From Thermoplasmata archaeon (GTDB lineage: Archaea > Thermoplasmatota > Thermoplasmata > Thermoplasmatales > Thermoplasmataceae), in assembly GCA_021818715.1 (NCBI GenBank), contig JAKATN010000005.1, forward strand, positions 1-64,000: 64,000 nt of DNA, read 5' to 3'. Position 1 is the stretch's first letter. Every line of letters starts with the position of its first letter. Below, piece by piece: positions 5,053 to 59,371 of this stretch. The position numbers and the translations under genes are program-made. The notes beneath the pieces are model-generated. The model was not told where the DNA came from. It saw nothing but the letters and a program-made list of their open reading frames with translations, and searched no databases.

Positions 5053-5158
5053 ATAATGTTTTGGATAACCAAAAATTCAACAAGTGACAAGTCTGTATGT
5101 CATCCCGTTTCGGAAAAATGCGAGTACACGGAAAAAACAGTCCCGGGAGCAAAAAGAA

Positions 5159-5167
5159 CATTTAAGT
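5159..5167 (+). promoter_or_regulatory. TATA-like box of the surface repeat protein
   Basis: CATTTAAGTA around 5158-5167 precedes ATG 5201 by about 37 nt. That places transcription start near 5186-5190 and gives a very short leader. This supports ATG 5201 rather than the in-frame GTG at 5084, which would put 39 basic and polar residues before the signal segment. Confidence 0.45.
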
Positions 5168-5200
5168 ACATTCCTTCCAATTACTCGAACGGTACGAAGC

Positions 5201-8200
5201 ATGTTTCAACGCGTTTTATCCAGTAAGAGCGGTTATATTGCTGTCATTGCCTGCTTCCTTGCGGTTGCGCTGTTCATCACCCCAACCGGGCTGCTTTACG
5301 GCACCGGCGGATCTCACCAGCAGGGTGTGCCACAATCCGCAGGGGCTTTGCCAGCATATTCTGTTTCATTCGAGGAAACCGGTCTCCCTTCTGTTGGATC
5401 AGGTAATGCAGTATGGGCCGTGACCTTCAATAATTCCACGGAAAGAAGCAATACAGGGGTGATCAGTTTTTCCGCACAGGACGGCACATATAACTACACG
5501 ATTGAAAACATAAGCGGTTTTTCCTCCACACCGAGACATGGGACTGTCACAGTGAGTTCATCCAACATTGCAGTCCAAATCGCCTTTTCAAGCACGTATT
5601 ATAAAGTTACGTTCACACAGAGCGGCTTGCTGACGGGTGCAAACTGGCAGGTTACTGTCGACAATTTGACCGAAAGAACGAACGGCAGCAGCATAGCTTT
5701 CAATCTGAAGAACGGCAGCCATTCCTATTCAATTTCAGGGACGGCCGGATACTATCCTACGCCCAGTTCTGGTAAATTAAATGTTTCCGGAAACAACCTT
5801 GCAATTCCGGTGAAATTCAATAGTAACCTTGAAAAGATTACTTTCTTCGAGGCTGGTCTGCCATCGGGAACGCAGTGGGGCGTTTCCATTAATGAAGTCA
5901 CCACTTCATACAGTACTGATCCAAGCATTGTGTTCTCTCTTCCCAATGGAACATACAGCTACGCTGTCCACCTGAGCAGGCAGTCAAACAAGAACGGCGT
6001 TGTCGCTTTCTTTCCCACGCCCGCATCTGGTACCGTGTATTCCAATAATTCGTATCAAAACGTGACCATCGTATTTACCAGGGGATACAACACGCTCTAT
6101 TTCAATGAAACCGGGTTACCACGAACCTCCGCAAGCAACGTTTCGATGTGGTCGGTCAATCTCTCTGGCATTGTGCAGACAGCCAACACTTCATCAATGC
6201 TATTCTACGTGGCCAACGGCACTTATACCTTCGGCATTCCATCTGTCGGCGGATACCTGTACATGTATCCTGCGAAGAGCATAACCGTCTCTTCCAACTT
6301 TTATTCCGAGCCAGTTATTTTCACACAGAATTATTCCTATGTGAAGTTCATAGCCAAGACCCTTCCACATGGAACTAACTTTGTCTGGGGGGCAACGATA
6401 GGATCAATCAAGGAAATTACTGAAAACAACACGCTGGTCTTCACAGTTCCAGCATCTAAGTCCTTTTCGTACAGTGTGCTTGCAAACCCTGATTTTTCAT
6501 TGACCGCAAACAGCAGTGGGTCAGGCACCAGTAAGTCTCTTGGCGGGGTATATTTAATAAACCTATCATTTGCCGGCAGTACCTCTCCGACCGGTACCCT
6601 TGGTGTGCAGAACGACAATGAGATTCAGTTCTACGGTCTTGGCCTGCCTTATGGCACTGGATATTCTGTTTCTCTAAATGCGAGCAACAGGAATCAGACA
6701 GAAAGTTCAGGTTTAGGAGGTCTTCTGACATTCACCGGTCTTTCCTCGGGATCTTATGTTTACTGGGTTTCTTCAACATCCGGGTACATCCCAATTGTGA
6801 GGTCGGGCACCGTTGATCTGGCTGGCTCCTACACTTCTGTAAACGTCACCTTCACTCCAATCGCCTTCAAGGTCAACTTTGCAGAAAGCGGGCTGCCCTC
6901 TGGGGTATCATGGAGCGTCGGGCTGAACTCATTCTACTTTGGTACCACCTCGTATGTTTCCAATACGCTCGGTGATATAACCGCACGTCTCTCAAACGGT
7001 TCATATTATTATTTCGCGCAGCCGGTCAAGACGAACGGCACGGTCTATTATCCTACCGTAAAATCCGGATTCCTTCACGTCAATGGTACAAGCACCCAGA
7101 TAAACATCAAGTTCGTTTCAGCCGAATATCCTGTAACTTTTGTTGAGCTGGGGCTTCCGGCAGGGATTCCATGGGCCGTGAACCTGTCCGGAACATTGCA
7201 TGACTCCAATTCGACAGGCACCGTCACTGCCAACCTTCTTAACGGCACCTACTCGTACATCATATTGGGGCAACCGGGATACAGGGCAAATGCATCCGTG
7301 GGCATTGTGGGCATTTATGGATTGCCTGTGACAGTTTACATTCAGTTCTACAACGTATCATATTCAGTTAACTTCGTTGAATCCGGACTTCCTGCGAACA
7401 CCAACTGGCACGTCGAGATTTCTGGCGTCTCCTACAGCTCATTCGGCACCGGGGTGGTATCGGTCGAGCTTGAGAACGGAACCTACCAGTTCGTGGTTCC
7501 CAACGAACTCACATATTATGTTTCCAATGTATCCGGAGGCCACATAATCGTAAACGGTTCTCAGGTAGGCTCGGTCATATACCTGGGCTTCCACAGCGTA
7601 GTTGACCAGCTTACTATCAGTGAGACTGGGCTGCCTAGCGGAATAGCATGGGATTACTCCATCTCAGGTTCCTCGCCATCGACAGTTGTAGCTAACCAAA
7701 CTTCAGTGTACCTGCAGAATGGTTCATATACTCTCTTATTTGATCCTTCTTTTGACCCTTTCTCCGGACTTACGTATTATCCGATACAGTCTGTGATTCA
7801 GATTTCTCTCAATTCTTCTGAAACCGTGACAGTAAACTTCAGCGCGTTCGTCTACCCGATTGTCGTCAGTGAATCTGGCCTGCCGGTAAATGCATCATGG
7901 TCGGCAATTGTGGATCAAAAGACATATCACTCCATGAACTCTCAGATATCAGTTAACCTTCCAAACGGGACATACAGCTATTACATCCCCAACGTCTATG
8001 TGAATTATTACCCGAATGTCAGAGACGGGAACATAACAGTGTCAGGCCATTCTGTAACTTTACCGATAAAATTCCACGAGCAGAACTATACGGTAACATT
8101 TCAGGAGACTGGTATTAGTGGGGTAAGTTGGAATGTGACCGTGTCGAACTCCACAGTGACCCTGATCAAATCCACCACAGCGTCTTCAATAGAATACTCA

Positions 8201-8716
8201 CTGCCCAACGGTTCATACAGTTATAGAATAGCGTCCAGCAACAGAGATTACGCTCCAACAAATTACAGCGGCAGCCTTGATGTGAGTGGTGCGGCCGTAA
8301 CCGTGAATGAAACCTTCATTGCGTATGAATTCAGCGTTGTCTTCAGGGAAACTGGACTGGCAACCCTCACACTGTGGAGCGTCACATTTAACGGTAAGCA
8401 GTATACGCAGTGGTCCAACAATTCCACCACAATTACTATCACGCATCTCTTCAACGGGACATATACCTACTCAGTATCCCCGATCAGCGGCTACACGGAA
8501 ACTAGTGGGCCTCCGCAGAGCCCATTTAATGTAACAGGAAAGAACGTTACCATACCACTATACTATACCTCTACCACGCCATCATACCAGCCGCCGACTA
8601 CGAGCAGTGGTTTCCACCTCCCAGGGTATGCCATCATCGTAATTGTTGCGGTGGCGGTGGTCGGAATTGCTGTGGCCATTGCGGTAGTCGCGTCGCAGAG
8701 AAGAAAGAGGATGTGA
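5201..8716 (+). CDS. Giant cell-surface protein with 13 FxETGLPxGxxW repeats
   Basis: 1171-aa secreted, membrane-anchored protein. The N-terminus MFQRVLSSKSGYIAVIACFL is a signal or anchor segment, and the C-terminus is a hydrophobic helix (GYAIIVIVAVAVVGIAVAIAV) followed by SQRRKRM, so the body faces outside. I count 13 repeats of about 75-95 aa, each opening with a motif such as VNFAESGLPSGVSWSVGLNS. Each continues with a NGTYSYxI strand pair, a GYxPxPxSG turn and a V(S/N)G...I.F strand, an all-beta Ig-like unit. Examples start near 5350, 5600, 5850, 6100, 6870, 7130, 7370, 7610 and 7860. Ser/Thr/Asn content is high, with many NxS/T sequons, so it is probably heavily glycosylated. Repeats of this kind are common in Thermoplasmata surface proteins; their ligand is unknown. 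Confidence 0.85.
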   Translation: MFQRVLSSKSGYIAVIACFLAVALFITPTGLLYGTGGSHQQGVPQSAGALPAYSVSFEETGLPSVGSGNAVWAVTFNNSTERSNTGVISFSAQDGTYNYTIENISGFSSTPRHGTVTVSSSNIAVQIAFSSTYYKVTFTQSGLLTGANWQVTVDNLTERTNGSSIAFNLKNGSHSYSISGTAGYYPTPSSGKLNVSGNNLAIPVKFNSNLEKITFFEAGLPSGTQWGVSINEVTTSYSTDPSIVFSLPNGTYSYAVHLSRQSNKNGVVAFFPTPASGTVYSNNSYQNVTIVFTRGYNTLYFNETGLPRTSASNVSMWSVNLSGIVQTANTSSMLFYVANGTYTFGIPSVGGYLYMYPAKSITVSSNFYSEPVIFTQNYSYVKFIAKTLPHGTNFVWGATIGSIKEITENNTLVFTVPASKSFSYSVLANPDFSLTANSSGSGTSKSLGGVYLINLSFAGSTSPTGTLGVQNDNEIQFYGLGLPYGTGYSVSLNASNRNQTESSGLGGLLTFTGLSSGSYVYWVSSTSGYIPIVRSGTVDLAGSYTSVNVTFTPIAFKVNFAESGLPSGVSWSVGLNSFYFGTTSYVSNTLGDITARLSNGSYYYFAQPVKTNGTVYYPTVKSGFLHVNGTSTQINIKFVSAEYPVTFVELGLPAGIPWAVNLSGTLHDSNSTGTVTANLLNGTYSYIILGQPGYRANASVGIVGIYGLPVTVYIQFYNVSYSVNFVESGLPANTNWHVEISGVSYSSFGTGVVSVELENGTYQFVVPNELTYYVSNVSGGHIIVNGSQVGSVIYLGFHSVVDQLTISETGLPSGIAWDYSISGSSPSTVVANQTSVYLQNGSYTLLFDPSFDPFSGLTYYPIQSVIQISLNSSETVTVNFSAFVYPIVVSESGLPVNASWSAIVDQKTYHSMNSQISVNLPNGTYSYYIPNVYVNYYPNVRDGNITVSGHSVTLPIKFHEQNYTVTFQETGISGVSWNVTVSNSTVTLIKSTTASSIEYSLPNGSYSYRIASSNRDYAPTNYSGSLDVSGAAVTVNETFIAYEFSVVFRETGLATLTLWSVTFNGKQYTQWSNNSTTITITHLFNGTYTYSVSPISGYTETSGPPQSPFNVTGKNVTIPLYYTSTTPSYQPPTTSSGFHLPGYAIIVIVAVAVVGIAVAIAVVASQRRKRM

Positions 8717-9271
8717 TCATGCCTGGAGCAAACGCTTCAGGCTTTCAAATTCCTCCTCGTTTATCTCTCCTTTAGCCAGTCGGAGCTTTAATGCCTTCAG
8801 TGGATCAGTTTCGGATGACGCGACCGGATGATCCGTTGCGTGCGTAATTCTGTTCTGGATAACAATGGACAGTGCTTTTGTCAAATCCCTGATTTTCCTC
8901 CTGAAAACCCACCTCTCCTTCACGCCTATGCCAGACAGAATGAGGACATCATCCATCACGCCTTCCTGGATCTCTATTGAAGAAAGTTGCCTGAACTGAA
9001 ATGTTCTTACCTCAAATGACATAAAACCCTTTGAGACCATAAGCAGGCGCATGTTGGAGATCACCAGCCATGCATGGCCGTACTGCCTCCCCCTGCTGGA
9101 TCCTCTTACATTAATATTTGACCCCTCGAAATGCGTGAGCCCCCAGGACCTGACGCTTGCCTCAATAACTTCTCCTGGCTGCAGGTAAGGCCTGAGCCTC
9201 AACAGATAAGATTCGGGCATATCCACGAATCTTGAATCCTGCCTTCCGGCCAAACTGGAAAACGTCTCCAC
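8717..9271 (-). CDS. PH-like domain protein with C-terminal SHOCT motif
   Basis: 184-aa soluble protein. Residues 25-150 form a beta-rich domain (YLQPGEVIEASVRSW, HAWLVISNMRLLMVSKG, QLSSIEIQEGVMDDVLIL) that resembles bacterial PH-like domains. The last 30 residues (DPLKALKLRLAKGEINEEEF, then ESLKRLLQ) are a typical SHOCT motif, a short helical oligomerisation element. No membrane segment is visible. Its stop codon abuts the stop of the surface repeat gene with no base between them (TGA at 8714-8716, then the complement of TGA at 8717-8719). Function is unknown; in other proteins SHOCT often marks envelope- or membrane-associated factors. Confidence 0.7.
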   Translation of the reverse strand: METFSSLAGRQDSRFVDMPESYLLRLRPYLQPGEVIEASVRSWGLTHFEGSNINVRGSSRGRQYGHAWLVISNMRLLMVSKGFMSFEVRTFQFRQLSSIEIQEGVMDDVLILSGIGVKERWVFRRKIRDLTKALSIVIQNRITHATDHPVASSETDPLKALKLRLAKGEINEEEFESLKRLLQA

Positions 9272-9377
9272 TGTGAGCTAGAACAATCACGGAATCTAAT
9301 AACTTTCGGGTAGCTGTCAGTCTTGAATCAGTGACACAGGTCTCAAAGAAAAAGATATGCAGGACCATTTTGAGAGT

Positions 9378-11489
9378 CTACAGGTTAAGCAGCACGGCGA
9401 GGTACTCAAACTGGAATGCCTGCAGGTTCAAACCGGTAAAACCTGTACCCGAAAGAGAAAGCGGCAGGGTAGAGATGTAAATACTGTCAGATCCAACTAT
9501 TACCCTGAAGGGAAGACCCTGCAATTGCCAGTGAGTCCCGCTTGGATTTGAGTTGAATGATGCGCCAGCAGTGCTATAGTATTGATATAGCGAGTAATTC
9601 CAGGCAGCTACCGATGGAGTTCTGATCACCACTGTCATGTTGTTGAGCAGTATGCTTGTAACAGTGGCAGAATAGAGCTTTCCACCACTGAGTATGTTGA
9701 GCACCTGCCCTCTTGTCCAGATCTGATTGTTAAGGCTTGTTACCCTTCCAGAGAGCAGGAAGCTACCTGTCTGGGAGATAGAGGTTTCAGATCCTGACAT
9801 GTTTATGATGGTAGAACTCAAAGTGTACAGCCCTTTTGCACCTTTGATGTCAAGAGGCAGGTTACTCAATATGTGCCCTGACGAATTTCCAGATCCCTGC
9901 TCTAGAGGTAAGCCGTCTTGCAGGTAGTAATAATTCTGTGAGACAAATTGAGTGGTTCCGTATGACTCAATCTCCCCTGTGCTGTTAAGGGTATCAACGG
10001 GCTTGAAGTTGTTGTCGGCAGATGCAAACTGATTGGTAATGCTTGTACTCCCTGAAATAACCGAAACTGTTCCACTGTTCCAGTTTGGAACGAATATCTG
10101 GCCGGTGATTGGATCCCAGTCCATGGCATTTGGACCGTTACCAGGTCCTGCATTGCTTGGGTAATTTGCAACGAAACCAACATACTTTCCCGTTACGCCG
10201 TTGAACAGATATACTGAACTATTTCCGAAGTCAGCAACGTAGACCATCTGGTTCGCACGATCGTACACAAGTGAAACAGGGGTATCAAATTGACCATAAT
10301 AGGCGGTTAGTTGCTGATCGTTTGCGCCGTTAAGCGAAAACACGGTTCTACCTCCCGGATAACTGTAATAATAATTGCTCAATGGTTCATTTCCGTAGCT
10401 AATATAAGATTCCGTGGCGAAAATAGATCCCGTGGAAGTATCATAGGCTAGGCTCCAAGGTGTTTCTGCATAGAGGTATCCTATAACCTGTTCAACTATG
10501 GGATTGATGATGGCAATTCCCTCAGGGCCCCCTCCCAACGCAACATACACATACCCGTTTGCCGGGTCATATGATATGCTGGACGGTATTACGCCGCTGC
10601 CCGAAGTCGAAGGGTGTGCTACCACGATATAGCCAGTCTGGGCAAAAGTTGTGGCATTCAGGGTGACCACAGCTCCCCCATATACGCTGAAATATGTGGT
10701 TATCATAACAGAATTCAAGTAAGGCACAAATGTGACATCGTCCGGTGCTGACGAGAAATATACTGTCTGCACAACTTTCAATGAATTTCCATCAATGACC
10801 TGAATAAACCCGTTCTGGAAAGTTGGGGCTTGATTGCCAAAGTTGTAGGGGGCTGAAAGGTTTCCCTCCGCGATAAATATTAGATTGTTATATGGGTCAA
10901 AAGCCATGCCAGATGGATATCCACTCAGCGGGATAGAGGCACCCACTGTGTCTGTTGCGCCATTCAGTACGCTTACATATCCTGGGGAAATTGTGCCTTG
11001 AGAATCAGACGTATAGTTGGAGTTCAAAACAAATATCAGGTTATTCACTGTGTCCACTACCACACCATTTGGGTTCTGGCCCACTGGCACATTGGCAACC
11101 AGTTTATTTGAAACCACCCCGCTTGGGGTGCTGTTGCTGAACGTTGCCTCGATTGTTACGTTATAGTGAAGGGAAAGGCTGAAACCTTTCGAATAAGACA
11201 GCGTCGAAGAAGTTGGGTTATTGAAGAAGGCACCCTGAATCCCCATCGGGATATTCTGGTGTACAATTGAATTATTCTGGATGTCGGTTGCCGTCAGCTG
11301 ATTTGAGAATCCAGAAAGTGCCTGCTTTGTACTCACTTCGAATTGAGTTTCATTCAATCCGCTGGCGTAAGGCACATACCACAGAATGAAGGAACCCGAG
11401 ATAGTGACCACTATGGAGAAGACGAATAGAGTGCCGATGATTTCGGAGACCCCGTGATCTCCTTTTTTCATTAACCTAGGTTTCTTCAT
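9378..11489 (-). CDS. Pilin-like protein with a seven-bladed YVTN beta-propeller
   Basis: 703-aa surface protein, third gene of the operon. The N-terminus is a type IV pilin/archaellin-type (class III) signal: basic MKKPRLMKKGDHG, then VSEIIGTLFVFSIVVTISGS, then FILWYVP. Cleavage is expected after the Gly before VSEIIG. From about residue 130 to 480 I count seven YVTN-type repeats: VVDTVNNLIFVLN, MAFDPYNNLIFIAE, VTFVPYLNSVMITT, ISYDPANGYVYVAL, LAYDTSTGSIFATE, LVYDRANQMVYVAD and MDWDPITGQIFVPN. That number fits one closed propeller. A beta-rich domain ends in LQAFQFEYLAVLLNL, similar to the ends of the other two proteins of the operon. It starts 9 nt after the 1211-aa gene. Fusion of a pilin N-terminus to a propeller suggests a tip or decoration subunit (inference). 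Confidence 0.78.
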   Translation of the reverse strand: MKKPRLMKKGDHGVSEIIGTLFVFSIVVTISGSFILWYVPYASGLNETQFEVSTKQALSGFSNQLTATDIQNNSIVHQNIPMGIQGAFFNNPTSSTLSYSKGFSLSLHYNVTIEATFSNSTPSGVVSNKLVANVPVGQNPNGVVVDTVNNLIFVLNSNYTSDSQGTISPGYVSVLNGATDTVGASIPLSGYPSGMAFDPYNNLIFIAEGNLSAPYNFGNQAPTFQNGFIQVIDGNSLKVVQTVYFSSAPDDVTFVPYLNSVMITTYFSVYGGAVVTLNATTFAQTGYIVVAHPSTSGSGVIPSSISYDPANGYVYVALGGGPEGIAIINPIVEQVIGYLYAETPWSLAYDTSTGSIFATESYISYGNEPLSNYYYSYPGGRTVFSLNGANDQQLTAYYGQFDTPVSLVYDRANQMVYVADFGNSSVYLFNGVTGKYVGFVANYPSNAGPGNGPNAMDWDPITGQIFVPNWNSGTVSVISGSTSITNQFASADNNFKPVDTLNSTGEIESYGTTQFVSQNYYYLQDGLPLEQGSGNSSGHILSNLPLDIKGAKGLYTLSSTIINMSGSETSISQTGSFLLSGRVTSLNNQIWTRGQVLNILSGGKLYSATVTSILLNNMTVVIRTPSVAAWNYSLYQYYSTAGASFNSNPSGTHWQLQGLPFRVIVGSDSIYISTLPLSLSGTGFTGLNLQAFQFEYLAVLLNL

Positions 11490-11498
11490 CTTTTGCCC

Positions 11499-14400
11499 TC
11501 AGACATTTATCACCTGCAGACTCTCATACACAATATTCACTGAATAGAGTGACATGTAATCCTGGGCTGGCATGGTTATGGACAGTTTAGTCCCGGCAGG
11601 ATCGAGGGTAACGTTCAGCGGAAAACCGGAAAAGGCCCAGGAATAAAGATTGCCCTTCATGTCTTTATTGAATTCCGAGAAGAGCACCCTGTCAATTTCA
11701 CTTGCATAGTTTGAATTGATCACGTAAGAGAAATGTATCAGCGTAAGGTTTGTGACCATTGCAGGATATGGATTTCCGTAAAGATCATAATGGGTAAACT
11801 TCTCGCCCTGATATCTGTGATTACTTTCGAATTGGGATACGCTGAGCGTGAGCTGGTTGGTTTCAATCCCTGAGGCGGAAGAAGTCTGCCCTCCAAGATT
11901 TAGCAGGAAGGAGGAGAAAAATAACTTTCCGGAATTATTGACAATTGAGATGGGTACATTGGCTGAGCTTGTAACGTACTGATTGTTGGAATAGTTTGAA
12001 AGCACCATCCCATCCTGCATGTAGTAAGCGACAGGATTAACAAATGCCGTGTACCCGTAAGCAGTAAGCTGCCCGCCTCCTGTTAATGTAGATACATTTA
12101 TAGTCCCCGGTTTCTGGTTGAAATAGATGCTGCCGCCGTTGATAATTGTCATTTTGTTGGAAAGTGTGTCGAGAGCATAAATGAGCCCATTTTCGCTATC
12201 ATAAGCCAGCGCAGAAGGGTCATTCCCAGTTGCGATGGAATTTATGGTCTGGGAAGTGAACGTGTTTTCAAGAGTGATATTGTTGGAATTGTTGTTTCCA
12301 ATATACACGTAACCATTGCCGTTATCCATTGTAAGGCCCATCGGGTATGCTGGTACATTCGCAGATTCGACGCTGAAAGTTCCCTTGTTGTTATTGAGAA
12401 CGTCTATTACGGATACATTCCCCGAACCGGAGTTGCCCACATATATGTTGTTGTCGAGTGGGTCGTACACAATATCTCTTGGCAGCAGTCCAACACGGTA
12501 GAAATGGTAGAACGGATATGCTGTTGAAGAGAGATTTATTGCACTAACATTTGCATTACCATAGAAGGTAACATACATAATATTGCGATAGACCAGCGGA
12601 CTTATCACTGCTGCGGTAGGGTATGGTGGTGATGAAGAGCTTGAAGCTGGGCTTTTGTATTCTATTTCGTATCCGAACTGCACGTTGCTGTCCTGAACAA
12701 AAAATCCGTTACTGTTGAAATGGAAGCTGCTGATATCATTAAGTTGTAAGGCCTTTGAGGAGGATGTACTTGCCAGAACCCAGTTTAAAGTGGAGGTACA
12801 GTCCACATTAATATAATAAGTTCCAGCCGGCAGACTAAAGAGGCTTATGGGAATTGATTCCATGAACCCCTTTCTGCCGCCCTTATTCACCGAAATGGGG
12901 ACACTAACTGAAAACTCGCTGTTCCATTCAGAGGATGTTAAATTTCCGGTTCCAATACCCACTGTTAAGGTGCCGCTGCCCTTCAGCTGAAGCGACAAAT
13001 AATTTACAGATCCACCGGCAATCATTTTGAATTCCTCAGAACCGCTGCTGTAGTAGGGAGGCTTTTCCCTTCCAAATTGCCCCTTAGGGCCTTTGACATA
13101 GGAATATTCCGCGGGGTAGGAAGGAGACGGATTAATCGTAAAAGTATAGGTTGTAAATTGATTCTTCCCGATCTGAACGATTTGCGTAATATTCCCACTG
13201 CCATTGTCCAGAACATAAACCGACTGGTTATGCGGATCGTAGACAGCGTATGACGGATCAGGAAACAGCCGAGGAACAGTACCAGGAGCTACAAGTGAGA
13301 TATTTGCAACAGTATATCCCGCCGATGGGTTTCCCAGCGAAGGATTAATTATAGTAACGTTCTCGGAGAGATTGTTGGTGACGTACAGGTAACCATTGGA
13401 GGGATCGTATGCAACGCTTGTGGGCTCCTGCCCGACGCCGTAATTTCCTACTACTGTATAGTTATTAAGGGTATCAATCACAATAACATTATCCGAACCT
13501 GAATTTACCACAGCAAGATACTGTGTCCCGTTAATATAAGTGATTGCGACCGGATCGTTCAACATATTATTCCACACATATGAAGGGGGAGAGGACCCGG
13601 AAATACCAGAAATAGGAAGGAACACCGTATTGGAGGTAAAATTGCTAGAAATAATCAGTTGTCCGGCGCTGATATCAAGAGCATCTGGACCTTCAAGATA
13701 AGGAAGAGTGCCATTTGGATAATTGAAACTCATTGCCTTGTCTATCTGGTAAGCTCCGGATCCGGAATTATACAAAGCAACAATCGGTGAATAATAGAAT
13801 CCTCCCGTTCCATTAAATGAGACATTATATCCTGTGACGTAAACTGTAGATGTCCCTGCTTGAGAGCTTGCATTTATAGCTATGGCAAGCGGCTCTGAGA
13901 TATTCAGATTTACTGTGCCGGAAACCGCAGGCGTACCCAATGCCGCGTTCACCACTGTCATCTTTCCGCTTTGAGGGCCGGCACCGTTAATAGCCTGATT
14001 TGGATGGGGAATTCCCGAAGAAGTGAGCAGGTAACTGGAATCTGTCACCAAAATATTTTGTGAAACAGGATCATAGGCTATTCCATAAGGTTCGGGGACA
14101 GATGAAACATAAGAGAGCAGTGGGGCCGTAAAGGAACCACCGGAACTGCCAATAGAAATACCCAGCACAGTCAGGCTGTTCTGCCAGTAATCAGTCGAAA
14201 ATATCTCAAGGTATAAGCCCGATAGGCCTGAGACGGCAATTACATTGCTCTCTTCCAGTCCAGCAGGGGGAAGGCTTGTCTCAATTAGGTTAACGGTGGA
14301 AGTATCGCTTAAGTCGATTATTGCGATATCAGGCGTGTAGCCTGCGCTAACCCCTCCTGACGTGAGGTTCATTACGCTGACATAGAGGTAACCTCCAGAA

Positions 14401-15134
14401 CCAGAAGGCTGGGGAACAAAGGTTATCCCGCTGGGATACAGCAACTGGGTGTTCAGACCACCTGAATTGATAGTGTTTACTATTTTGTTGCTCTCTGTAT
14501 TAAATACGGTAATCGTGGAAAACAGATACCCGTTGTAATTGGTGTAAGCAAAAAAATTTGAAATGTAAAGATTGCCGTTTTGCTGATCATAGGCTATCCC
14601 GCTTGGATTAAGGCCGACCCTGAAGTTGCCAATAACGGTATGGGTCGTATCGTCAATTTCTTCCATGCTGTTCGAGTTGTAGTCAATTATGTAAGTAATT
14701 CCATTTTCGGTAAGGGACTGAGAAGGTCCCAGTCCGTTCATGTCGGGGATGGTACCTACCACTTCGTTTGTGATGGCAGTGGGAACCGTGTTCTCAAGCA
14801 ACTTGTAGTTTATCCCTAAACCATAGGAAAGAGAGGCGCTGAACCCACCTTCCTGATATGCTATAGACGATGGTTGCGAAGGCGACAGCAAAGTTCCCTG
14901 AATGCCCAAAGGAATATTCTGGGAGATCACGTCCCCGTAGGAGAGGGAGGGAGACTCGATCTGAGAAATCAGAGAAACAAGTGAAGCCTGGGATTCCTGC
15001 TGGAATTGCTGTTCATATGCACCCTCGGTATTCGGAACGTACCACAGTTCCAGTGCAGAAAAAGATGTGATGACCATTGCAAAGACCAGCATGGTCCCTA
15101 TGATCTCAGACACACCGGCTTCATGCTTTCGCAC
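11499..15134 (-). CDS. Giant pilin-like protein with multiple YVTN-type propeller repeats
   Basis: 1211-aa surface protein, second gene of the operon. The N-terminus MRKHEAG then VSEIIGTMLVFAMVITSFSA then LELWYVP is again a class III signal with Glu at +3 of the predicted mature form. Propeller-type repeats (SGIAYDQQNGNLYISN, YGIAYDPVSQNILVTD, TSVAYDPSNGYLYVTN, YAVYDPHNQSVYVLD, RDIVYDPLDNNIYVGN, LTMDNGNGYVYIGN, ALAYDSENGLIYALD) occur in two blocks. A non-repeat beta domain of about 170 aa separates them (around 12600-13100). The C-terminus ends YESLQVINV. Start is GTG at 15134, in a tight operon (39 nt after the upstream gene, 9 nt before the next). Confidence 0.76.
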   Translation of the reverse strand: MRKHEAGVSEIIGTMLVFAMVITSFSALELWYVPNTEGAYEQQFQQESQASLVSLISQIESPSLSYGDVISQNIPLGIQGTLLSPSQPSSIAYQEGGFSASLSYGLGINYKLLENTVPTAITNEVVGTIPDMNGLGPSQSLTENGITYIIDYNSNSMEEIDDTTHTVIGNFRVGLNPSGIAYDQQNGNLYISNFFAYTNYNGYLFSTITVFNTESNKIVNTINSGGLNTQLLYPSGITFVPQPSGSGGYLYVSVMNLTSGGVSAGYTPDIAIIDLSDTSTVNLIETSLPPAGLEESNVIAVSGLSGLYLEIFSTDYWQNSLTVLGISIGSSGGSFTAPLLSYVSSVPEPYGIAYDPVSQNILVTDSSYLLTSSGIPHPNQAINGAGPQSGKMTVVNAALGTPAVSGTVNLNISEPLAIAINASSQAGTSTVYVTGYNVSFNGTGGFYYSPIVALYNSGSGAYQIDKAMSFNYPNGTLPYLEGPDALDISAGQLIISSNFTSNTVFLPISGISGSSPPSYVWNNMLNDPVAITYINGTQYLAVVNSGSDNVIVIDTLNNYTVVGNYGVGQEPTSVAYDPSNGYLYVTNNLSENVTIINPSLGNPSAGYTVANISLVAPGTVPRLFPDPSYAVYDPHNQSVYVLDNGSGNITQIVQIGKNQFTTYTFTINPSPSYPAEYSYVKGPKGQFGREKPPYYSSGSEEFKMIAGGSVNYLSLQLKGSGTLTVGIGTGNLTSSEWNSEFSVSVPISVNKGGRKGFMESIPISLFSLPAGTYYINVDCTSTLNWVLASTSSSKALQLNDISSFHFNSNGFFVQDSNVQFGYEIEYKSPASSSSSPPYPTAAVISPLVYRNIMYVTFYGNANVSAINLSSTAYPFYHFYRVGLLPRDIVYDPLDNNIYVGNSGSGNVSVIDVLNNNKGTFSVESANVPAYPMGLTMDNGNGYVYIGNNNSNNITLENTFTSQTINSIATGNDPSALAYDSENGLIYALDTLSNKMTIINGGSIYFNQKPGTINVSTLTGGGQLTAYGYTAFVNPVAYYMQDGMVLSNYSNNQYVTSSANVPISIVNNSGKLFFSSFLLNLGGQTSSASGIETNQLTLSVSQFESNHRYQGEKFTHYDLYGNPYPAMVTNLTLIHFSYVINSNYASEIDRVLFSEFNKDMKGNLYSWAFSGFPLNVTLDPAGTKLSITMPAQDYMSLYSVNIVYESLQVINV

Positions 15135-15173
15135 ATAGTGTTAAGTGAATGGTGAGAAATAAACTTTTCAGAT

Positions 15174-16166
15174 TCAGATCTGAAGCAGCCTGAGAACAAA
15201 GTACCCGAAATTGACAGAAAATGGATACAGGATATGGGTTATGCCTATGTTCAATAGGTTGCCTTTCGGGTTAGCCGTAATGTCGATAGAGCCAATGGAT
15301 GAGGGTTGCCAGCTGAATGGCTTGTTTTCCCAAGCGTGCTGGCTTGCGGTTAAGTTATAAAGAGAAGCAAGTGCATAATTCCATGCAAACGCCTGCGGCG
15401 ATACAATGGTGTAGTTGAACGAGTTAAGCGTAATGTTATCCACGATTGCCGAGGTATAACCACCTGTCAGGTTGGAGACTGTAACGTTTTCACCGAGGAA
15501 GAAACTGCTCTGGTTTATGTTAGAGTACTGCATGGTCATGAGGGTTACGCCATACCCTCCGGTAGAGGAATTGGTTCCTTCGATGGAAAACTGCGATGCA
15601 TTCAGATATAGGTTCTTGGCGTGGCCGCCAAATGAAATGGGAAGGGAACCAACTATTTCAGAATAATTGGAAGCGGGCTGCTGAAGGATTATAGTGTCAG
15701 ACTGGTAGTAAAAATTGGTAGGGGTGACAAATGGTGTTTCTGTATCAAGGTAGAACTCCCCTGTGCAGTTGAATGTATAATTCATAGGTATAGTGCGTAT
15801 AACCTTGTCATAGGATACAGTGACACTCATGTTATACGACATTGTGATTATGAACCCAGATCCGTTGGAGTACCCTATAAAGGAATCTGTACTCGATGAA
15901 AATGGGGGAGTACCGGGAACTCCAAGCGTGAAACTTTGGCCGACGAAATCGTTGGGATATGGTGTCGTGTTGCTGATCTGATCCTGCAGCTGTAGGAAGG
16001 AATTCTCGGTTTCACTGATATACTGTAGATCCTGCTGCTGCCCATTGGATGGCACATACCACAGTACGTAAGCAGTCATCAGAGAGGCAACTATCACAAA
16101 GGTAAGCAATGCACCGATTATGACGGCAACCGCACCATCCCTTTTTCTGACTGGAAGTTTTGCCAA
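15174..16166 (-). CDS. Pilin-like surface protein, first gene of operon
   Basis: 330-aa protein with a class III type signal: MAKLPVRKRDGA then VAVIIGALLTFVIVASLMTA then YVLWYVP. The +5 Glu-like residue seen in the other two (VSEIIG) is replaced here (VAVIIG). The rest is Ser/Thr/Asn-rich, probably beta, with many sequons, and ends FGYFVLRLLQI. There are no propeller repeats, so this could be the main filament or base subunit while the two following proteins are adhesive (inference). The start is TTG at 16166. A TATA-like AGATATATCGG about 25 nt upstream supports a leaderless start there. No prepilin peptidase or assembly ATPase gene is in the window. Confidence 0.72.
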   Translation of the reverse strand: MAKLPVRKRDGAVAVIIGALLTFVIVASLMTAYVLWYVPSNGQQQDLQYISETENSFLQLQDQISNTTPYPNDFVGQSFTLGVPGTPPFSSSTDSFIGYSNGSGFIITMSYNMSVTVSYDKVIRTIPMNYTFNCTGEFYLDTETPFVTPTNFYYQSDTIILQQPASNYSEIVGSLPISFGGHAKNLYLNASQFSIEGTNSSTGGYGVTLMTMQYSNINQSSFFLGENVTVSNLTGGYTSAIVDNITLNSFNYTIVSPQAFAWNYALASLYNLTASQHAWENKPFSWQPSSIGSIDITANPKGNLLNIGITHILYPFSVNFGYFVLRLLQI

Positions 16167-38330: not shown

Positions 38331-38340
38331 CTTATATATT
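38331..38340 (-). promoter_or_regulatory. TATA box of the MTA/SAH deaminase gene
   Basis: Minus-strand AATATATAAG is centred about 22-25 nt before GTG 38314. It overlaps the TAA stop of the upstream membrane-protein gene. A leaderless mRNA is expected. Confidence 0.5.
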
Positions 38341-39234
38341 TGTTATACTGGATCTGGAGGACTTTCTGATTACATGAGCAGCATACAGCCATGCAATGGC
38401 AAGAAGGATGGAAAGCGCAAGAAACTGATAACCGGAGTTCTGCATCATCCTCATAATGAACAGAAACACAATGGCCACAGCAACTCCAGTTGTCATTGAT
38501 ACAGCTATGCCTGACAGCCTGAATCTACGATCCCTTTCCCCAGTAAGGTAGAAGCCGGAAGCAATCGCTACGAAAGAGATCACAAAAGAGACCAGTATGA
38601 CAAAGTTGTACGGCTCTGAAAGTGCATTAAGAGGAAGCTGGATTCCCTCCGCACCCAGGAAAATAAGGGTATAGATGGCATAGTACTGCATCAGGAGGCT
38701 CATCTCATAAGCGAACTGGAATCCTGAACCTGGAACCAGAGGAAGTGAAGATAGGTACGGCAGCAGTTGAGTATACAGCAACGGAAACTCGCTGGAAGTG
38801 TACAGGTAAACAGCGGAAAGCTGCTCGGCAAGCAGGAAGAATGAGAAAAGCATGTATGATACGGCCCCTCCTCCCCTGCCTGTCAGTGTGCCTTCAATGA
38901 GCGATATGAACGCAAGGGACATTTCGAAGGACAATATATTCGGAAACGTAAGGAGAAGGGACAGAAAATAAGGATCCCCAAATCCCCCCAACAGGCCGGC
39001 ATATGAGAACTCAGCATACAAAAAAAGAAGAAGTACCAGCACAAGGACAGCGCGATAGAGATACTGCCTGACCGCCTTCGGCATAAACTGCTTTACCAGT
39101 GGGAGCACGAACAGCGGGATCCAGACGTATGGATTCATATTGGGAATGAGATACGGGATGACATAGGCAAAAACAGCAAAAGAAGGCATCATTATGAAAA
39201 AATTGGAAACCTTGCCGCCTATCCTGATATCCAT
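38332..39234 (-). CDS. Polytopic membrane protein of the MoxR-DUF58 operon
   Basis: 300-aa membrane protein with about nine hydrophobic segments (FFIMMPSFAVFAYVIPYLIP, AVLVLVLLLFLYAEFSYAGL, GIAVSMTTGVAVAIVFLFIM, FLALSILLAIAWLYAAHV) and short basic loops (ERDRRFR, RKSSRS). No family motif is recognised. It is the last gene of the six-gene operon and begins 4 nt after the DUF58 stop. By position it may be the membrane component served by the MoxR-DUF58 pair. Confidence 0.72.
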   Translation of the reverse strand: MDIRIGGKVSNFFIMMPSFAVFAYVIPYLIPNMNPYVWIPLFVLPLVKQFMPKAVRQYLYRAVLVLVLLLFLYAEFSYAGLLGGFGDPYFLSLLLTFPNILSFEMSLAFISLIEGTLTGRGGGAVSYMLFSFFLLAEQLSAVYLYTSSEFPLLYTQLLPYLSSLPLVPGSGFQFAYEMSLLMQYYAIYTLIFLGAEGIQLPLNALSEPYNFVILVSFVISFVAIASGFYLTGERDRRFRLSGIAVSMTTGVAVAIVFLFIMRMMQNSGYQFLALSILLAIAWLYAAHVIRKSSRSSITNI

Positions 39235-39238
39235 TCTT

Positions 39239-40546
39239 TTACCTCACTATCTTTCCATACTGGTACTCCATCATCATTCTTGCAAAGAGGTGCGATTCCC
39301 TCACGACGTAAGACGGAGTCCCGAGGGAACGGATCATGGAAGCATAGCTCTTCAGCTCTATTTCTCTTCTTTTAAGCGTTTCGGCCATTATCCTGTTGTA
39401 TGGATCTTCAAGAGTCTCCATCTTTATGAACTCTGACGGTTCCACAATGAATACAGTTATCTGTTTTCCTTTCTGTATCATGGACACCCTGGGAATTCTG
39501 AAGGCGCCTTCCGATGACAGGGGAGTAAGGATTATGACCAGTGAACTCTTTTTCACGGTGTCCCTAACAATCCCAAGGGCCTGATGAAGGTCGAAGTCCC
39601 CGGCAGGCCTTATTTCAGAAACCAGTCTCTCCAGTGCGTTTATGGATACCTGCGATCTTGAGGCTTTGATCAATTCACTGAACTCGGAGGACAGAAGCAG
39701 GAAACCCACGCCGTCATGATTCCTTAGTATGGAATATCCAGCATTGATGGAGTTAATTATGAACCGATCGTACATCCGCCTCGCATTGTAGCCGAAGTTG
39801 GTTCCGAGACTGTAATCGATTGCGAAGTATACGTCAAGCTGCCTCTCTTCCTCCATCTGTTTCACGTAAATGTCTTCACCGTTGACAAGGCCGTATCTCG
39901 ACCAGGAGACATGCCTGAGATCGTCTGAATCGATGTATGGTCGAATTCCGTAAAAGTTATATCCCTGCCCTACAGACCTGGATTTGTGCAGTCCCTCAGT
40001 GAAGCGGACATTGCTCATCCTGTCGGTCCTTGCGCTGTATATGTCCGATGGAGATGGCGCAACCCGTATCTCAGTGGCCCTTTCCGCCACATAATTAAGG
40101 ACGCTGAGTCGAAGGGGGTCCTCTGAATACATGTTAACGGGGCCCACATAATACTTGCCCACTGCCTGTGGCGAAATTTCATAGTTAAAGGTGAGCGTTT
40201 CGCCCGGGCTGATAACCACATAACCCCGGTAATCACCACGGGCTCCGAAAACGTCGGAAAGTGTGTCAAAATAGTTGAAAGCAACTGATTTCTTTCCATT
40301 ATTCTGCATCACAAGCTTAACTGGGACCCACTGGTTCTTTCTTCCATAGGTTTCCCTGAGTGCCCTGGTAATAGTGACACCCTTCATCTTCTTTCCCTGA
40401 TTTAAATGAAACCCGACAATGTCAGCCCAGAGAGCCATAAGCAGGGCGATGGAAAACAGAACGAGGTATGTATATCCAAGGAAAAGCCCTTCGTATACTG
40501 CAGCAGAGAAGGCCGCAAGCAAACCATAAGCCTGCTTCTTGATCAT
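39239..40546 (-). CDS. DUF58 family protein
   Basis: 435-aa protein. Two N-terminal membrane helices (YGLLAAFSAAVYEGLFLGYT and LVLFSIALLMALWADIVGF) are followed by a beta domain (residues 60-160). The DUF58 core follows (GIRPYIDSDDLRHVSWSRYG then LVNGEDIYVKQMEEE) and runs into a von Willebrand A-like fold (LDVYFAIDYSLGTNFG, near residue 225). DUF58 proteins nearly always accompany MoxR ATPases, as here: this gene overlaps moxR by 4 nt. Confidence 0.86.
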   Translation of the reverse strand: MIKKQAYGLLAAFSAAVYEGLFLGYTYLVLFSIALLMALWADIVGFHLNQGKKMKGVTITRALRETYGRKNQWVPVKLVMQNNGKKSVAFNYFDTLSDVFGARGDYRGYVVISPGETLTFNYEISPQAVGKYYVGPVNMYSEDPLRLSVLNYVAERATEIRVAPSPSDIYSARTDRMSNVRFTEGLHKSRSVGQGYNFYGIRPYIDSDDLRHVSWSRYGLVNGEDIYVKQMEEERQLDVYFAIDYSLGTNFGYNARRMYDRFIINSINAGYSILRNHDGVGFLLLSSEFSELIKASRSQVSINALERLVSEIRPAGDFDLHQALGIVRDTVKKSSLVIILTPLSSEGAFRIPRVSMIQKGKQITVFIVEPSEFIKMETLEDPYNRIMAETLKRREIELKSYASMIRSLGTPSYVVRESHLFARMMMEYQYGKIVR

Positions 40547-41526
40547 TCAGGAACCTTGACCGAGGAGACAAAGCCATCGATCATGCGGGCAATGAATTTC
40601 TGCAGGTCCGGTCCTGCCTCTATCACCGCTTCCGAATTGAGTATCAGTCGATGGTTGAGGAGTTCATACGCAATCATCCTCACGTCCTCAGGGATAACGT
40701 ACTTTCTCCCGTTGAGCAGTGCATTGGATTTCGCTGCCCTGTGGAATTTTCCGGTTGTCCTTGGACTGGCCCCCAGGTATATCTTCTCGTTCTCCCTTGT
40801 TGCACGGCATATGTCAACGATGTACTCCTTTATCCGGTCTGAGACGTAGACCTGATCCCTGAGCCTACGCAGGCGCATAATCTGGTCAGCATCCATTGTC
40901 AAAGTACCCTTCTGCTGTGACAGCATCTTCCTCTCCTCAAGGATCATCAGTTCATCCTTCTTGTCAGGATACGTAAGGAAGTACCGGAACAGGAATCGGT
41001 CCATGAGCGCTTCGGCCAGTGGGAAGGTCCCCTCCTGTTCTATCGGGTTCTGCGTGGCTATAACCAGAAAGGGCTGCGGAAGCTTCTCCGTGACCCCACC
41101 CTGGGATACCTGTTTCTCCTCCATGCTCTCCAGCAGCGCAGACTGAACCTTGGGCGGCGTCCTGTTAAGTTCATCTGCCAGAACCACGTTCGCAAAAATA
41201 GGTCCATGCCGGAACTCCATTTTCCTGGTTTCCAGGTTGAATGCCATGCTGCCGGTTATATCAGAAGGAAGCATGTCTGGCGTAAACTGAATTCTCTTGA
41301 ACGGAAGTTTAAGGAAAGAAGCAAACTCGGATGCTATCATGGTCTTTGCGAGACCCGGAACCCCTTCAAGCAGGACATGGTTTTCAGAAATGAGCGAAAT
41401 GAGCATGAACCGGACAATTCTTTCGGACCCGATGACGCTGTTTCCAATGGACTTTTCAATTCCCATCACTGTGTTCCTGACCTGCTGAAGGTCTTCCGTC
41501 TCGATATCTTCTTCAGCTTTGCTCAT
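40543..41526 (-). CDS. MoxR-type AAA+ ATPase
   Basis: 327-aa AAA+ ATPase. Walker A is LEGVPGLAKTMIASEF (near residue 55), Walker B is NVVLADELNRTPPKVQSALL, sensor 1 is LVIATQNPIEQEGTFPLAEA, and the arginine-finger region is ALMDRFLFRY. MoxR proteins act as chaperones that insert metals or assemble partner proteins having VWA domains. The overlaps (14 nt with the upstream gene, 4 nt with DUF58) show a single translational unit. Confidence 0.93.
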   Translation of the reverse strand: MSKAEEDIETEDLQQVRNTVMGIEKSIGNSVIGSERIVRFMLISLISENHVLLEGVPGLAKTMIASEFASFLKLPFKRIQFTPDMLPSDITGSMAFNLETRKMEFRHGPIFANVVLADELNRTPPKVQSALLESMEEKQVSQGGVTEKLPQPFLVIATQNPIEQEGTFPLAEALMDRFLFRYFLTYPDKKDELMILEERKMLSQQKGTLTMDADQIMRLRRLRDQVYVSDRIKEYIVDICRATRENEKIYLGASPRTTGKFHRAAKSNALLNGRKYVIPEDVRMIAYELLNHRLILNSEAVIEAGPDLQKFIARMIDGFVSSVKVPE

Positions 41527-42004
41527 TTCTGGATTCCCCCTCCCCGAAATTCATCTTTATGCTTCTGATCTCGTCGTAAACTGCAATTATTTCAGAAAAT
41601 GCGTTTTTTCTCTCCTCTTCGCCCTTTCTGATCCTGTATTTCGGTGATCCTCGCAACTTCCTGATAATCTTGTTATATCGCTTGCGGGCGTTTGCATACC
41701 TTCTTTCAAGATCTTTTATCTTTTCGATACTGGAATCCACTTCGTTCAGAAAATACTGGTCATCCATTTTAGTCACTCTCGCTACTTGCATGTTAAACCT
41801 GTTACCTGGAACCAGGAATTTCTCCCTTTTCTGCTCAAATGAGGGAGGAGCGGTGAGAGATGATTTCCTGGCGTAGTGTTTCATTACCAGCGAAATCACC
41901 AGAAGCGAAATAACAGGGATTAGAAATTTAGCATCTGTGAGCGGATTGTACAGCAAGTCCGGGATCAACTGGCTTGCCGTCGGTAAGGCAGCGGATTCTA
42001 TCAT
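41513..42004 (-). CDS. Small membrane-anchored protein of the MoxR-DUF58 operon
   Basis: 163-aa protein. After a short N-terminal segment there is one membrane helix (FLIPVISLLVISLVMKHYA, residues 29-47). A cytoplasmic, highly charged helical domain follows (SSIEKIKDLERRYANARKRY, then RIRKGEEERKNAFSEIIAVY), probably a coiled coil. It overlaps the MoxR gene by 14 nt and the preceding gene by 4 nt. Not recognised; in position it resembles the small DUF4129-like or accessory proteins of bacterial MoxR operons. Confidence 0.65.
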   Translation of the reverse strand: MIESAALPTASQLIPDLLYNPLTDAKFLIPVISLLVISLVMKHYARKSSLTAPPSFEQKREKFLVPGNRFNMQVARVTKMDDQYFLNEVDSSIEKIKDLERRYANARKRYNKIIRKLRGSPKYRIRKGEEERKNAFSEIIAVYDEIRSIKMNFGEGESRNEQS

Positions 42005-42507
42005 TTCTTTTCCTCAAAATAAAGTTTCACGATATTCAGGAAGCTGTAGAATTCTGTTGCCTTTTCCATAATGGCCTCGGGATTCGGGACTGGGCTAATG
42101 GAGTAGTTGGCAGGCTCATAATAGTCAAGGTAAAAATATGTAAGTTTTCTCAGAGCATTGTACTGGTTGATCTTATCCTCGTTTATCGGTGGAGGAGCCG
42201 CTATTGCATCTACCAGGTAAAAATTATCTGTGTATGCTCTGCGGTCCAGATCCATGCCGAATTCCCTGTAGCTCTCGATCAGGAATTGCCTGTTCAGCAC
42301 CGATTCCTTTATGCTGGAATTGTAGAATCTGGTATAATCCGCCCTCATTGCCTTAAAGAGTAGGGATATGGCGCGGCGGTAATCCTGGTTGAGTAGAATC
42401 CTGTTTGCCTCAATAATTGGTGGGATGTCCTCTACGCGCTTTACCTCCACTACCGTATCCACAGACTTCCGCTGTCCATAGAGAAGTCTTGAAAGAAATC
42501 CTGGCAC
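42001..42507 (-). CDS. Small soluble helical protein of the MoxR-DUF58 operon
   Basis: 168-aa soluble protein, mainly helical (IIEANRILLNQDYRRAISLL, FKAMRADYTRFYNSSIKESV, NQYNALRKLTYFYLDYYEPA). The pattern of the middle part recalls the cytoplasmic domain of DUF4129-type proteins found beside DUF58 genes, but the match is weak. It starts 2 nt after the stop of the giant secreted protein gene and overlaps the next gene by 4 nt. Confidence 0.6.
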   Translation of the reverse strand: MPGFLSRLLYGQRKSVDTVVEVKRVEDIPPIIEANRILLNQDYRRAISLLFKAMRADYTRFYNSSIKESVLNRQFLIESYREFGMDLDRRAYTDNFYLVDAIAAPPPINEDKINQYNALRKLTYFYLDYYEPANYSISPVPNPEAIMEKATEFYSFLNIVKLYFEEKK

Positions 42508-42509
42508 TT

Positions 42510-55541: not shown

Positions 55542-55738
55542 GATTTACATCTAAATATTATGTTATGATGTTGCGATGCAAAGATAAATTCCCATCTGTA
55601 CCGCGATTGATGCAATTGCCAAAACAGTATGATAAGGGTTAGCTTTCGCACCCTTAGAGCGAATGATGCGTAAAAAAATAATAAAAGAAAAAAATAACAG
55701 TAAGTATTATTCTTAGATCGGAGAGGGGAGAAGTGATA

Positions 55739-58700: not shown

Positions 58701-59371
58701 CCTCTGGCACCAAGGAAATCGTTTTATTTGTCTCCTTATCAGATGGGACCGATAATAGAGAGATGGTGCTATTGCCTTCTGCCTACACAATTAGATTCGC
58801 TGAGTCTGGCCTGCCATTGTGGACAAAATGGTCAATAACATTCAACGGAACAAACGTTACTTCAACTAATAGCGTGATTAACTTCCAGGAGCCAAATGGA
58901 ACATATGCTTACCATATTCTCGGAATTTCAGGATACAGGGCAAGCATGTATTACGGGACATTAACAGTGAATGGTAACTCTGTCAGCGAAAGCGTGATCT
59001 GGGCAGCTGTTCTCTACGAGATTGCATTCAGTGTGAACGGCATACCAAACGGTAGTACCTGGTCTGTTGAATTGACAGGCAGTGCATTCAATGGCATTGA
59101 TGTCAACGAAACACTGAGTTCAACCAATAATACCATATCGTTCTATGAACCTAATGGATCATATTCTTATGTGGCGCAGTTGCCGTCTGGATACACCAGT
59201 ACTAACCTTAGTAGAACCTTCGAAGTGGCGGGTGGCGTTATTCACCTTTCTATCCTGGCAAAACCAATCATTTCAAGTAATAGCAGCAACCTTGAGTACG
59301 CAATATTGATAGTAGTAGTAACCACAGCAATAGCTGGAACTGTGTTGTTTGTGGAGAGGAAGAAACAATGA
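55739..59371 (+). CDS. Second giant surface protein with propeller-like, Ig-like and ETGLP-type domains
   Basis: 1210-aa exported protein. The N-terminus MKTKGARMLAFSIVVFVLLS is a signal segment. Residues 60-380 are beta-rich with propeller-like strands. Two Ig-like units begin SVNVTPSSDTLGVDETANFT and ISLFISPPSDTMAVDSMAEF. Near the C-terminus are two repeats of the kind found in the 5.2-8.7 kb protein (TIRFAESGLPLWTKWSITFN, EIAFSVNGIPNGSTWSVELT), then a membrane helix (LEYAILIVVVTTAIAGTVLF) and ERKKQ. ATG 55739 is 8 nt after GGGGAG. The sequence is visibly richer in A/T than the flanking genes, suggesting relatively recent acquisition. Confidence 0.78.
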   Translation: MKTKGARMLAFSIVVFVLLSPLMALDNPYSNGTSKQDNSIVEHATMQDRALPRTINSTNSDLHFFSTGNQSEPLNYSSQLSSLLVWSAEGVTDGNQLIITGGNGLVNVNTTANSSGILLGSISGISGYTQFIVAFNSQLLIGGNNPGAQFYSYHPGSGNVSSSDSLLSSGWSGQGSDLLMSMSAGDNLTLVIEEHNGTSTGISPPQVGLIVNNTFLNITAKFPHLPAVGAGYFSAYGDHSFLVLTNGFGYLYNVTDSTVKNVTSILNYGFITPLGLWSPSSITYFDGQFIIAYSSNLVIYNPLTGYAQTLLTASPNSFFSFVSIANNRIFVGETNGTFTQILISTVNWGFTSFTDLWGKITDVCYSGGNFWAMGIWGSQSVLYSVPPPVLLSVNVTPSSDTLGVDETANFTANAFFAVGSSVIENYEELTYSWALSNNFGYINNASGNDVVFLAGNFTGNETLSVNASFNGVMVKEVNAAIEIVKSPPTLISLFISPPSDTMAVDSMAEFNATPEFYGTFSPNGTVIQWLLSNGLGRLNASTGSNVSFFAFGSIGNVTLSAKATLNGITVYSTPIKIVIVARGIWYQQLTSIFPESSRIFYPDSQNGQTGIDFEVLGGNATFNLSQGNTLITSINVTGGPINYGVTGNTTSYSYVNFIGNGESLRLTVNSLSNSIILVAYSEFAGFISKWTASMITDPPQWGISFVSADSPPYNTGMSFTIIAPGDNTIWMASSINEGYGSIWSSQVGFDRINGVSYAGWGVDFGGISHGGIDPNIALIPGHAYNFTIELMSGTTWGYFVNGIPINDTGIGYEWNMTTTTAQPGVVGIETQSFNAPTLNLTSPVIIPVASSFRYNGKWYISHDEYLSSGVSEDWYNGNFSEVPTLDLWNIAGHLENSSIPNGTIIIGQSQSPIYAPPPLGTEPIFGNFKITPVNQGQGLLQAYWNDNKVRLVPLDPCEITGLYFLDSTGKVIGIFNMKITSLVDTSVPSGTKEIVLFVSLSDGTDNREMVLLPSAYTIRFAESGLPLWTKWSITFNGTNVTSTNSVINFQEPNGTYAYHILGISGYRASMYYGTLTVNGNSVSESVIWAAVLYEIAFSVNGIPNGSTWSVELTGSAFNGIDVNETLSSTNNTISFYEPNGSYSYVAQLPSGYTSTNLSRTFEVAGGVIHLSILAKPIISSNSSNLEYAILIVVVTTAIAGTVLFVERKKQ

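Follow-up and report, generated by a model that had tools for sequence, protein, structure and literature searches.

Three pilin-like proteins encoded in one operon of a Thermoplasmata archaeon, two of them with beta-propellers in the same slot of a common body

The window, a stretch of 64,000 nucleotides from an acid-loving archaeon, includes three minus-strand genes that lie head to tail and are transcribed in the order 330, 1211 and 703 aa, with gaps of 39 bp between the first and the second gene and 9 bp between the second and the third. Gene 1 (15174–16166, TTG start) encodes a body-only pilin-like protein of 330 aa, relatives of which were found in 28 of the 61 genomes. Gene 2 (11499–15134) encodes a pilin-like protein of 1211 aa with two inserted propellers, recognised by Pfam/NCBIfam scans, HMM, structure model and fold match, and gene 3 (9378–11489) one of 703 aa with a single inserted propeller, recognised by Pfam/NCBIfam scans and HMM. 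All positions given below for these genes are likewise on the minus strand. The coordinates and lengths of the original prediction were exact. It had also pointed to the gene order in other genomes as a check, and the three-gene order recurs in nine other contigs with similarly tight gaps (−26 to 164 bp). Five of these carry close orthologues (L074–L078) and four more distant ones (L080, L081, L083 and L086), and they come from Thermoplasmatales, Thermoplasmata or Candidatus Thermoplasmatota archaea. Several other genera have a single body gene, often adjoining purB, and a purB-like gene also adjoins the operon of the window.

All three proteins begin with the common pilin-type N-terminus that had been predicted: a charged leader, a hydrophobic helix from V(S/A)xIIG, and LWYVP (RKRDGA/VAVIIG...LWYVP, RKHEAG/VSEIIG...LWYVP and KKGDHG/VSEIIG...LWYVP, the slash standing before the V(S/A)xIIG motif). 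In gene 1 the leader covers residues 1–12 (MAKLPVRKRDGA; 16131–16166), with candidate class III cleavage at DG/A or GA/V, and the helix ending in LWYVP residues 13–39 (16050–16130). Leader and helix with LWYVP correspond to residues 1–7 and 8–34 in gene 2 (15033–15134), and to residues 1–13 and 14–40 in gene 3 (11370–11489). The archaeal class III rule calls for Gly, Ala or Ser at position −1 and a charge at −2 (PMC4371748). Genes 1 and 2 can conform to this rule when the cut is moved one residue upstream; gene 3 has His, which is no classic charged residue, at −2. Relative to V(S/A), position −3 is acidic in 45 of the 45 family members (Asp in 43, Glu in two), and 35 of them have a [KRDE][GAS] pair within one residue of the expected cut, the strict motif being missed by the other ten. 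Judged from these motifs, class III processing of the three proteins is likely. The Pilin_N model (PF07790) remained below its cut-off in every body scored (gene 2 with 13.8 bits against a cut-off of 25.2, relatives with 18.7 at most). Pilin_N is one Pfam family, and many archaeal pilins diverge from it.

Also the C-terminal half of about 200 aa is common to the three proteins, which the original prediction had overlooked. BLAST comparisons among the three align the 330-aa sequence to the two ends of both the 1211- and the 703-aa protein. An HMM of the body, built only from single-domain relatives of 288–363 aa, matches every insert-bearing protein as two pieces, model positions about 10–128 and about 133–325, with the insert always between them. 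Because the 703- and 1211-aa proteins are matched as two halves, the propellers are placed at one slot. The domains had been thought to hang on the end of a pilin N-terminus; instead they lie in a single loop of a conserved body that continues after them with its C-terminal half. The N-terminal half of the body covers residues 35–117 in gene 2 (14784–15032; model positions 13–129) and 41–126 in gene 3 (11112–11369; HMM). The C-terminal half, delimited by BLAST and HMM, covers about residues 1007–1211 in gene 2 (11502–12116) and about residues 490–703 in gene 3 (9381–10022; model positions 128–325 on residues 492–691). In gene 1 the empty slot falls at about residues 119–133 (15768–15812), as placed by the HMM break at about 128–133 in the insert-bearing relatives. 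The family is thus built on one body with one slot, and the 330-aa protein is this body without an insert.

The contents of the slot vary. It is empty in gene 1 and in most single-copy relatives, and holds one propeller in gene 3 and two in gene 2. In three of the more distant clusters (L083, L081 and L080) the slot of the first gene holds a DUF2341-like domain, either singly or in two copies; these copies are below the cut-off (best 22.0 bits against 23.4), yet four of the five were matched. In L048 and L049 the slot holds a segment of about 650 aa with Ig-like ETGLP repeats, by eye of the same kind as those in the 1210-aa neighbour of the operon in the window. The L048 locus (7883–13748) has a tandem pair of body proteins of about 960 aa, with another insert of about 650 aa in the same slot.

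In the Pfam and NCBIfam scans both large proteins matched propeller repeats of the YVTN, NHL and Lactonase kinds, and the 330-aa protein had no match. TIGR02276 scored 37.7 bits in the 703-aa and 52.5 bits in the 1211-aa protein (cut-off 27.85), and PF01436 scored 32.8 and 32.6 bits (cut-off 20). The seven repeats predicted for the 703-aa protein were recovered as blade motifs at residues 140, 192, 249, 302, 344, 404 and 453, while shuffled versions of the sequence gave a mean of 0.3 motifs and a maximum of three in 1000. Pfam/NCBIfam matches and the motif scan place this seven-blade YVTN/NHL propeller at about residues 127–486 (10032–11111).

In the 1211-aa protein 14 blades were distinguished by eye, ten before and four after an extra beta domain; a stricter motif scan found ten, the rest being degenerate. 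The 14 blades are read as two seven-blade propellers. The first, with blades 1–7 at about residues 125–515 (13590–14762), is delimited by motifs, model strands and two-propeller fold matches. The second, delimited by motifs, model strands and a profile match, consists of blades 8–10 at about residues 516–655 (13170–13589) and blades 11–14 at about residues 837–1000 (12135–12626), with the extra beta domain between them at about residues 656–836 (12627–13169), as outlined by comparison with relatives. Two propellers and a further beta domain were thus correctly predicted, but this domain lies inside the second propeller and does not separate the two. It is present in the window protein and L074–L076, and missing from six of the nine relatives (L077, L078, L080, L081, L083 and L086).

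AlphaFold models, which had been suggested as a check, were informative for one of the two proteins considered. That of the 1211-aa protein (residues 12–1211) has a pLDDT of 55.6 overall and mostly 60–86 in the propeller blocks, and is compatible with two propellers. Its best fold matches include WD40 proteins with two tandem seven-blade propellers (e.g. TMt 0.65 over 945 columns), which support the two-propeller layout only and imply neither relationship nor descent. The model of gene 1 was poor (pLDDT 52), showing a helix over residues 10–66 and then strands, and as regards a pilin fold of the body it may offer only the predicted long N-terminal helix. The best solved sequence relative of the propellers is the surface-layer propeller 1l0q of Methanosarcina mazei (E = 3.4e-42 with the profile of the 1211-aa protein), which is a YVTN propeller of the same kind but part of a surface-layer protein, not of a pilin-type chain. 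The propellers might also be enzymes of a lactonase- or YncE-like type on the cell surface or on pili, as the original prediction had suggested among its options and as matches to Lactonase (PF10282) and to PQQ-associated propeller models would agree with. These matches concern the repeats only, and the best solved match is the surface-layer propeller; furthermore, eight proteins of the 703-aa type have no invariant position with His, Cys, Glu, Lys or Arg. Because no catalytic-type residue is invariant in this family, the enzyme reading was set aside as very improbable.

No pilus assembly genes are present in the window, as had been noted, and the machine that was expected elsewhere is found in the same genome, with ATPase and platform genes on contig C38 and the gene of a prepilin peptidase on contig C42. 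The C38 genes form a tight operon of ATPase, platform, platform and ATPase, with a gene for a 186-aa Pilin_N pilin about 310 bp upstream. The 186-aa Pilin_N protein upstream of the genome's own pilus operon (L040, 8708–9268), with the sequence KKDKA/VSPIIA, is likely the major pilin; a close relative of it is present in L157 and absent from the other operons examined. By its layout the C38 operon is of the Cuniculiplasma (CdiP) type. The CdiP machine of Cuniculiplasma divulgatum likewise has two ATPases and a split platform protein, and its pilin genes lie about 500 kb away from the machine, pilin genes distant from the machine being another feature common to both (PMC12448462). The subunits described for CdiP are a major pilin of 135 residues and a single minor pilin, CdiPA; propeller-bearing subunits do not figure in the available text (PMC12448462).

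PF01478 identified no prepilin peptidase in the genome of the window, nor in most of its relatives. Absence of the enzyme was rejected when an alignment of weak PF01478 hits from relatives was used as the query: it found the peptidase on C42 (E = 1.7e-46), and in 34 of the 61 genomes, this one included. The seeming absence was therefore a limit of the Pfam model. The peptidase of the clade (L060–L065 and L067) has diverged beyond the reach of PF01478, and its gene adjoins an imidazolonepropionase-like gene in most of the genomes inspected.

In four other families of the order (f3–f6; L160–L166 and L058) the gene directly adjoining the ATPases encodes a body homologue of 279–313 aa, matched by the body HMM with E-values from 2e-11 to 2e-16. 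When the helix was left out of the body HMM, only one operon pilin was matched (E = 4.9e-7), which means that the scores of the plain HMM depended largely on the helix. When profiles of the body and of the operon homologues were compared, E was 1.4e-19 with the helix and still significant with the helix removed (E = 1.7e-11, calculated for a single comparison; 97% probability, 202 columns). One locus, L167, has one ATPase and no body gene within the stretch covered. The operon-encoded body of L164 resembles DUF7289 (PF23960), a family of euryarchaeal minor pilins, at just under the cut-off (E = 7e-6, 26.1 bits against 27), whereas the window proteins themselves have no DUF7289 match. A probable minor-pilin group of euryarchaea, arCOG02911, is FlaFind-positive, prone to duplication and 250–550 aa long (PMC4858521).

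Within the family of the window, 29 genomes have a strong pilus-type ATPase, and the body gene was found in 26 of them, against none of the eight genomes that lack such an ATPase; the three ATPase-bearing genomes without the body gene are 62–68% complete. Among the 23 near-complete genomes of the family, body and machine are both present in 17 and both absent in six (17/17 against 0/6, Fisher p about 1e-5, with genomes that are not independent). The prepilin peptidase is also missing from seven of the eight ATPase-less genomes, the eighth (G022, 79% complete) having a peptidase. In G003 (96% complete) the three genes and the ATPase pair are present while the family alignment found no peptidase, probably because of an assembly gap. 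In the PurB tree the ATPase-less genomes fall into at least two groups, requiring at least two changes, so the independent losses are few, about two co-losses rather than eight. Archaellum-type ATPases are included in the T2SSE counts, so what the body gene co-occurs with is type IV filament machinery in the broad sense. With operon-encoded homologues in four families and co-occurrence with pilus ATPases and peptidase, the proposed relationship to pilins is supported. A 13,409-aa open frame in G015 proved to be a run of N and not a giant protein.

Several observations count against the pilin reading: the poor model of the body, the Pilin_N scores below the cut-off, His at −2 in gene 3, the ten relatives that miss the strict motif, the position of the genes apart from the machine in the family of the window, and G003, with the three genes but no peptidase found. 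The weak Pilin_N scores, the His at −2 and the distance from the machine would also suit plain membrane-anchored surface proteins, with the helix serving as an uncut anchor and the resemblance to pilins being a relic. For such a free-standing anchored protein it would be unexpected that the body gene is missing from near-complete genomes of the family without pilus ATPases and peptidase, and also the invariably acidic −3 position of the leader argues against it; this explanation is considered improbable.

The reading preferred here, with reasonable though far from full confidence, is that the three proteins are paralogous pilin-like minor subunits of an archaeal type IV pilus of the CdiP type, with the propellers as binding modules. 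Each protein would be made with the short charged leader and the hydrophobic helix and placed in the membrane by Sec, after which the PibD/FlaK-like prepilin peptidase encoded on C42 would cut just before the helix. The two ATPases and the split platform protein encoded on C38 would then feed the subunits into the pilus. They would be minor components, probably at the tip or near it, with the helix packed in the filament and the body at its surface, gene 1 contributing the bare body and genes 2 and 3 bodies with two and one seven-blade propellers, respectively, in the single loop. The tip or near-tip placement is suggested by the large size of the inserts, as proposed for bacterial modular pilins (PMC8179133). 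The filament would present the propellers outward as binding modules for a surface, a neighbouring cell or a matrix; we infer this role because of the types of modules, the surface-layer propeller 1l0q as the closest solved relative, and the occurrences of DUF2341, a domain present in proposed pilus-tip adhesins of archaea (PMC4858521) and in a gene of a Methanococcus maripaludis pilus locus that came up in a transformation screen (PMC10133366).

It is less probable, though deserving of serious consideration, that the three are surface proteins processed like pilins which form no long filament but an assembly like a bindosome or pseudopilus, or which belong to the unordered layer of proteins outside these wall-less cells; the machine would then only extract or arrange them near the membrane. 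In Sulfolobus the bindosome subunits have class III signal peptides and are processed by the peptidase that also cuts pilins (PMC4371748), the exterior protein layer of Thermoplasmatales is dense and little characterised in its composition (PMC12448462), and for a shaft subunit the 1211-aa protein would be very large. With a homologous body encoded inside the pilus operon of other families, it is simpler to assume that the proteins act in the filament or at its tip, although a subunit located at the base would agree with this as well.

Type IV pilins with modular architecture are known and widespread in bacteria (PMC8179133); a term search of the available text of that account gave no mention of archaea. 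Given that the body is a pilin, the proteins combine, as modular pilins do, a pilin part with a domain known outside pili. Like PilB and PilC of Streptococcus sanguinis, they would use the filament to present a large binding domain of known type that is carried by a small pilin part. In PilB and PilC a short loop attaches this module at the C-terminus of the pilin (PMC8179133), whereas here the module interrupts a loop and half of the body comes after it. The proteins described here are also archaeal, their modules are propellers, and one slot holds different modules in paralogues. A functional analogue is proposed in the tip adhesin PilY1/PilC of bacterial type IVa pili, a beta-propeller presented by the pili with the aid of minor pilins. 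PilY1 is not a pilin, and its propeller belongs to family IPR008707 (PMC8179133), while here the propeller is within the pilin-like chain; the Pfam and NCBIfam scans gave no match to a PilC/PilY1 model, only to YVTN, NHL, Lactonase and YncE-type models. A search of literature that was mainly open-access found no description of propeller-bearing pilins in Thermoplasmatales, and insertion of exchangeable modules in a loop at one shared slot of archaeal pilin-type proteins is, as far as found, undescribed.

More tentatively, and with somewhat less than even confidence, the proteins may represent a lineage-specific minor-pilin family in which unrelated binding modules are exchanged in one standard slot (none, one propeller, two propellers with an inner domain, DUF2341-like or Ig-like), and which forms a three-part propeller-bearing tip complex doing the job of PilY1 within pilin chains. 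The presence of different modules in the same loop of two proteins suggests that the cell may swap different gripping tools onto a shared pilus part. The operon would supply candidate minor or tip subunits for a pilus little known beyond its major pilin, in cells without an ordered S-layer, as well as a testable convergent parallel to the PilY1 propeller. Loading of large modules by loop insertion at one slot would differ from the C-terminal grafting of bacterial modular pilins, and the empty, one- and two-propeller versions in one operon offer a handy system for studying how much cargo a pilus machine tolerates.

Elsewhere in the window there are two large surface proteins, of 1210 aa (5084–8716) and 1212 aa (55733–59371), with Ig-like repeats of the ETGLP(S) type and a C-terminal membrane helix. 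The gene of the 1210-aa protein adjoins the operon, and a similar neighbour is present in several relatives. The gene immediately downstream of the operon (8717–9271), which shares its strand, encodes a 184-aa protein of the SHOCT/bPH type, and a similar gene follows the cluster in L041. The region 38332–45365 includes a cluster of MoxR-like ATPase, DUF58-like and membrane-protein genes, the last of which encodes a 951-aa protein in which carboxypeptidase-like beta repeats were recognised by eye.
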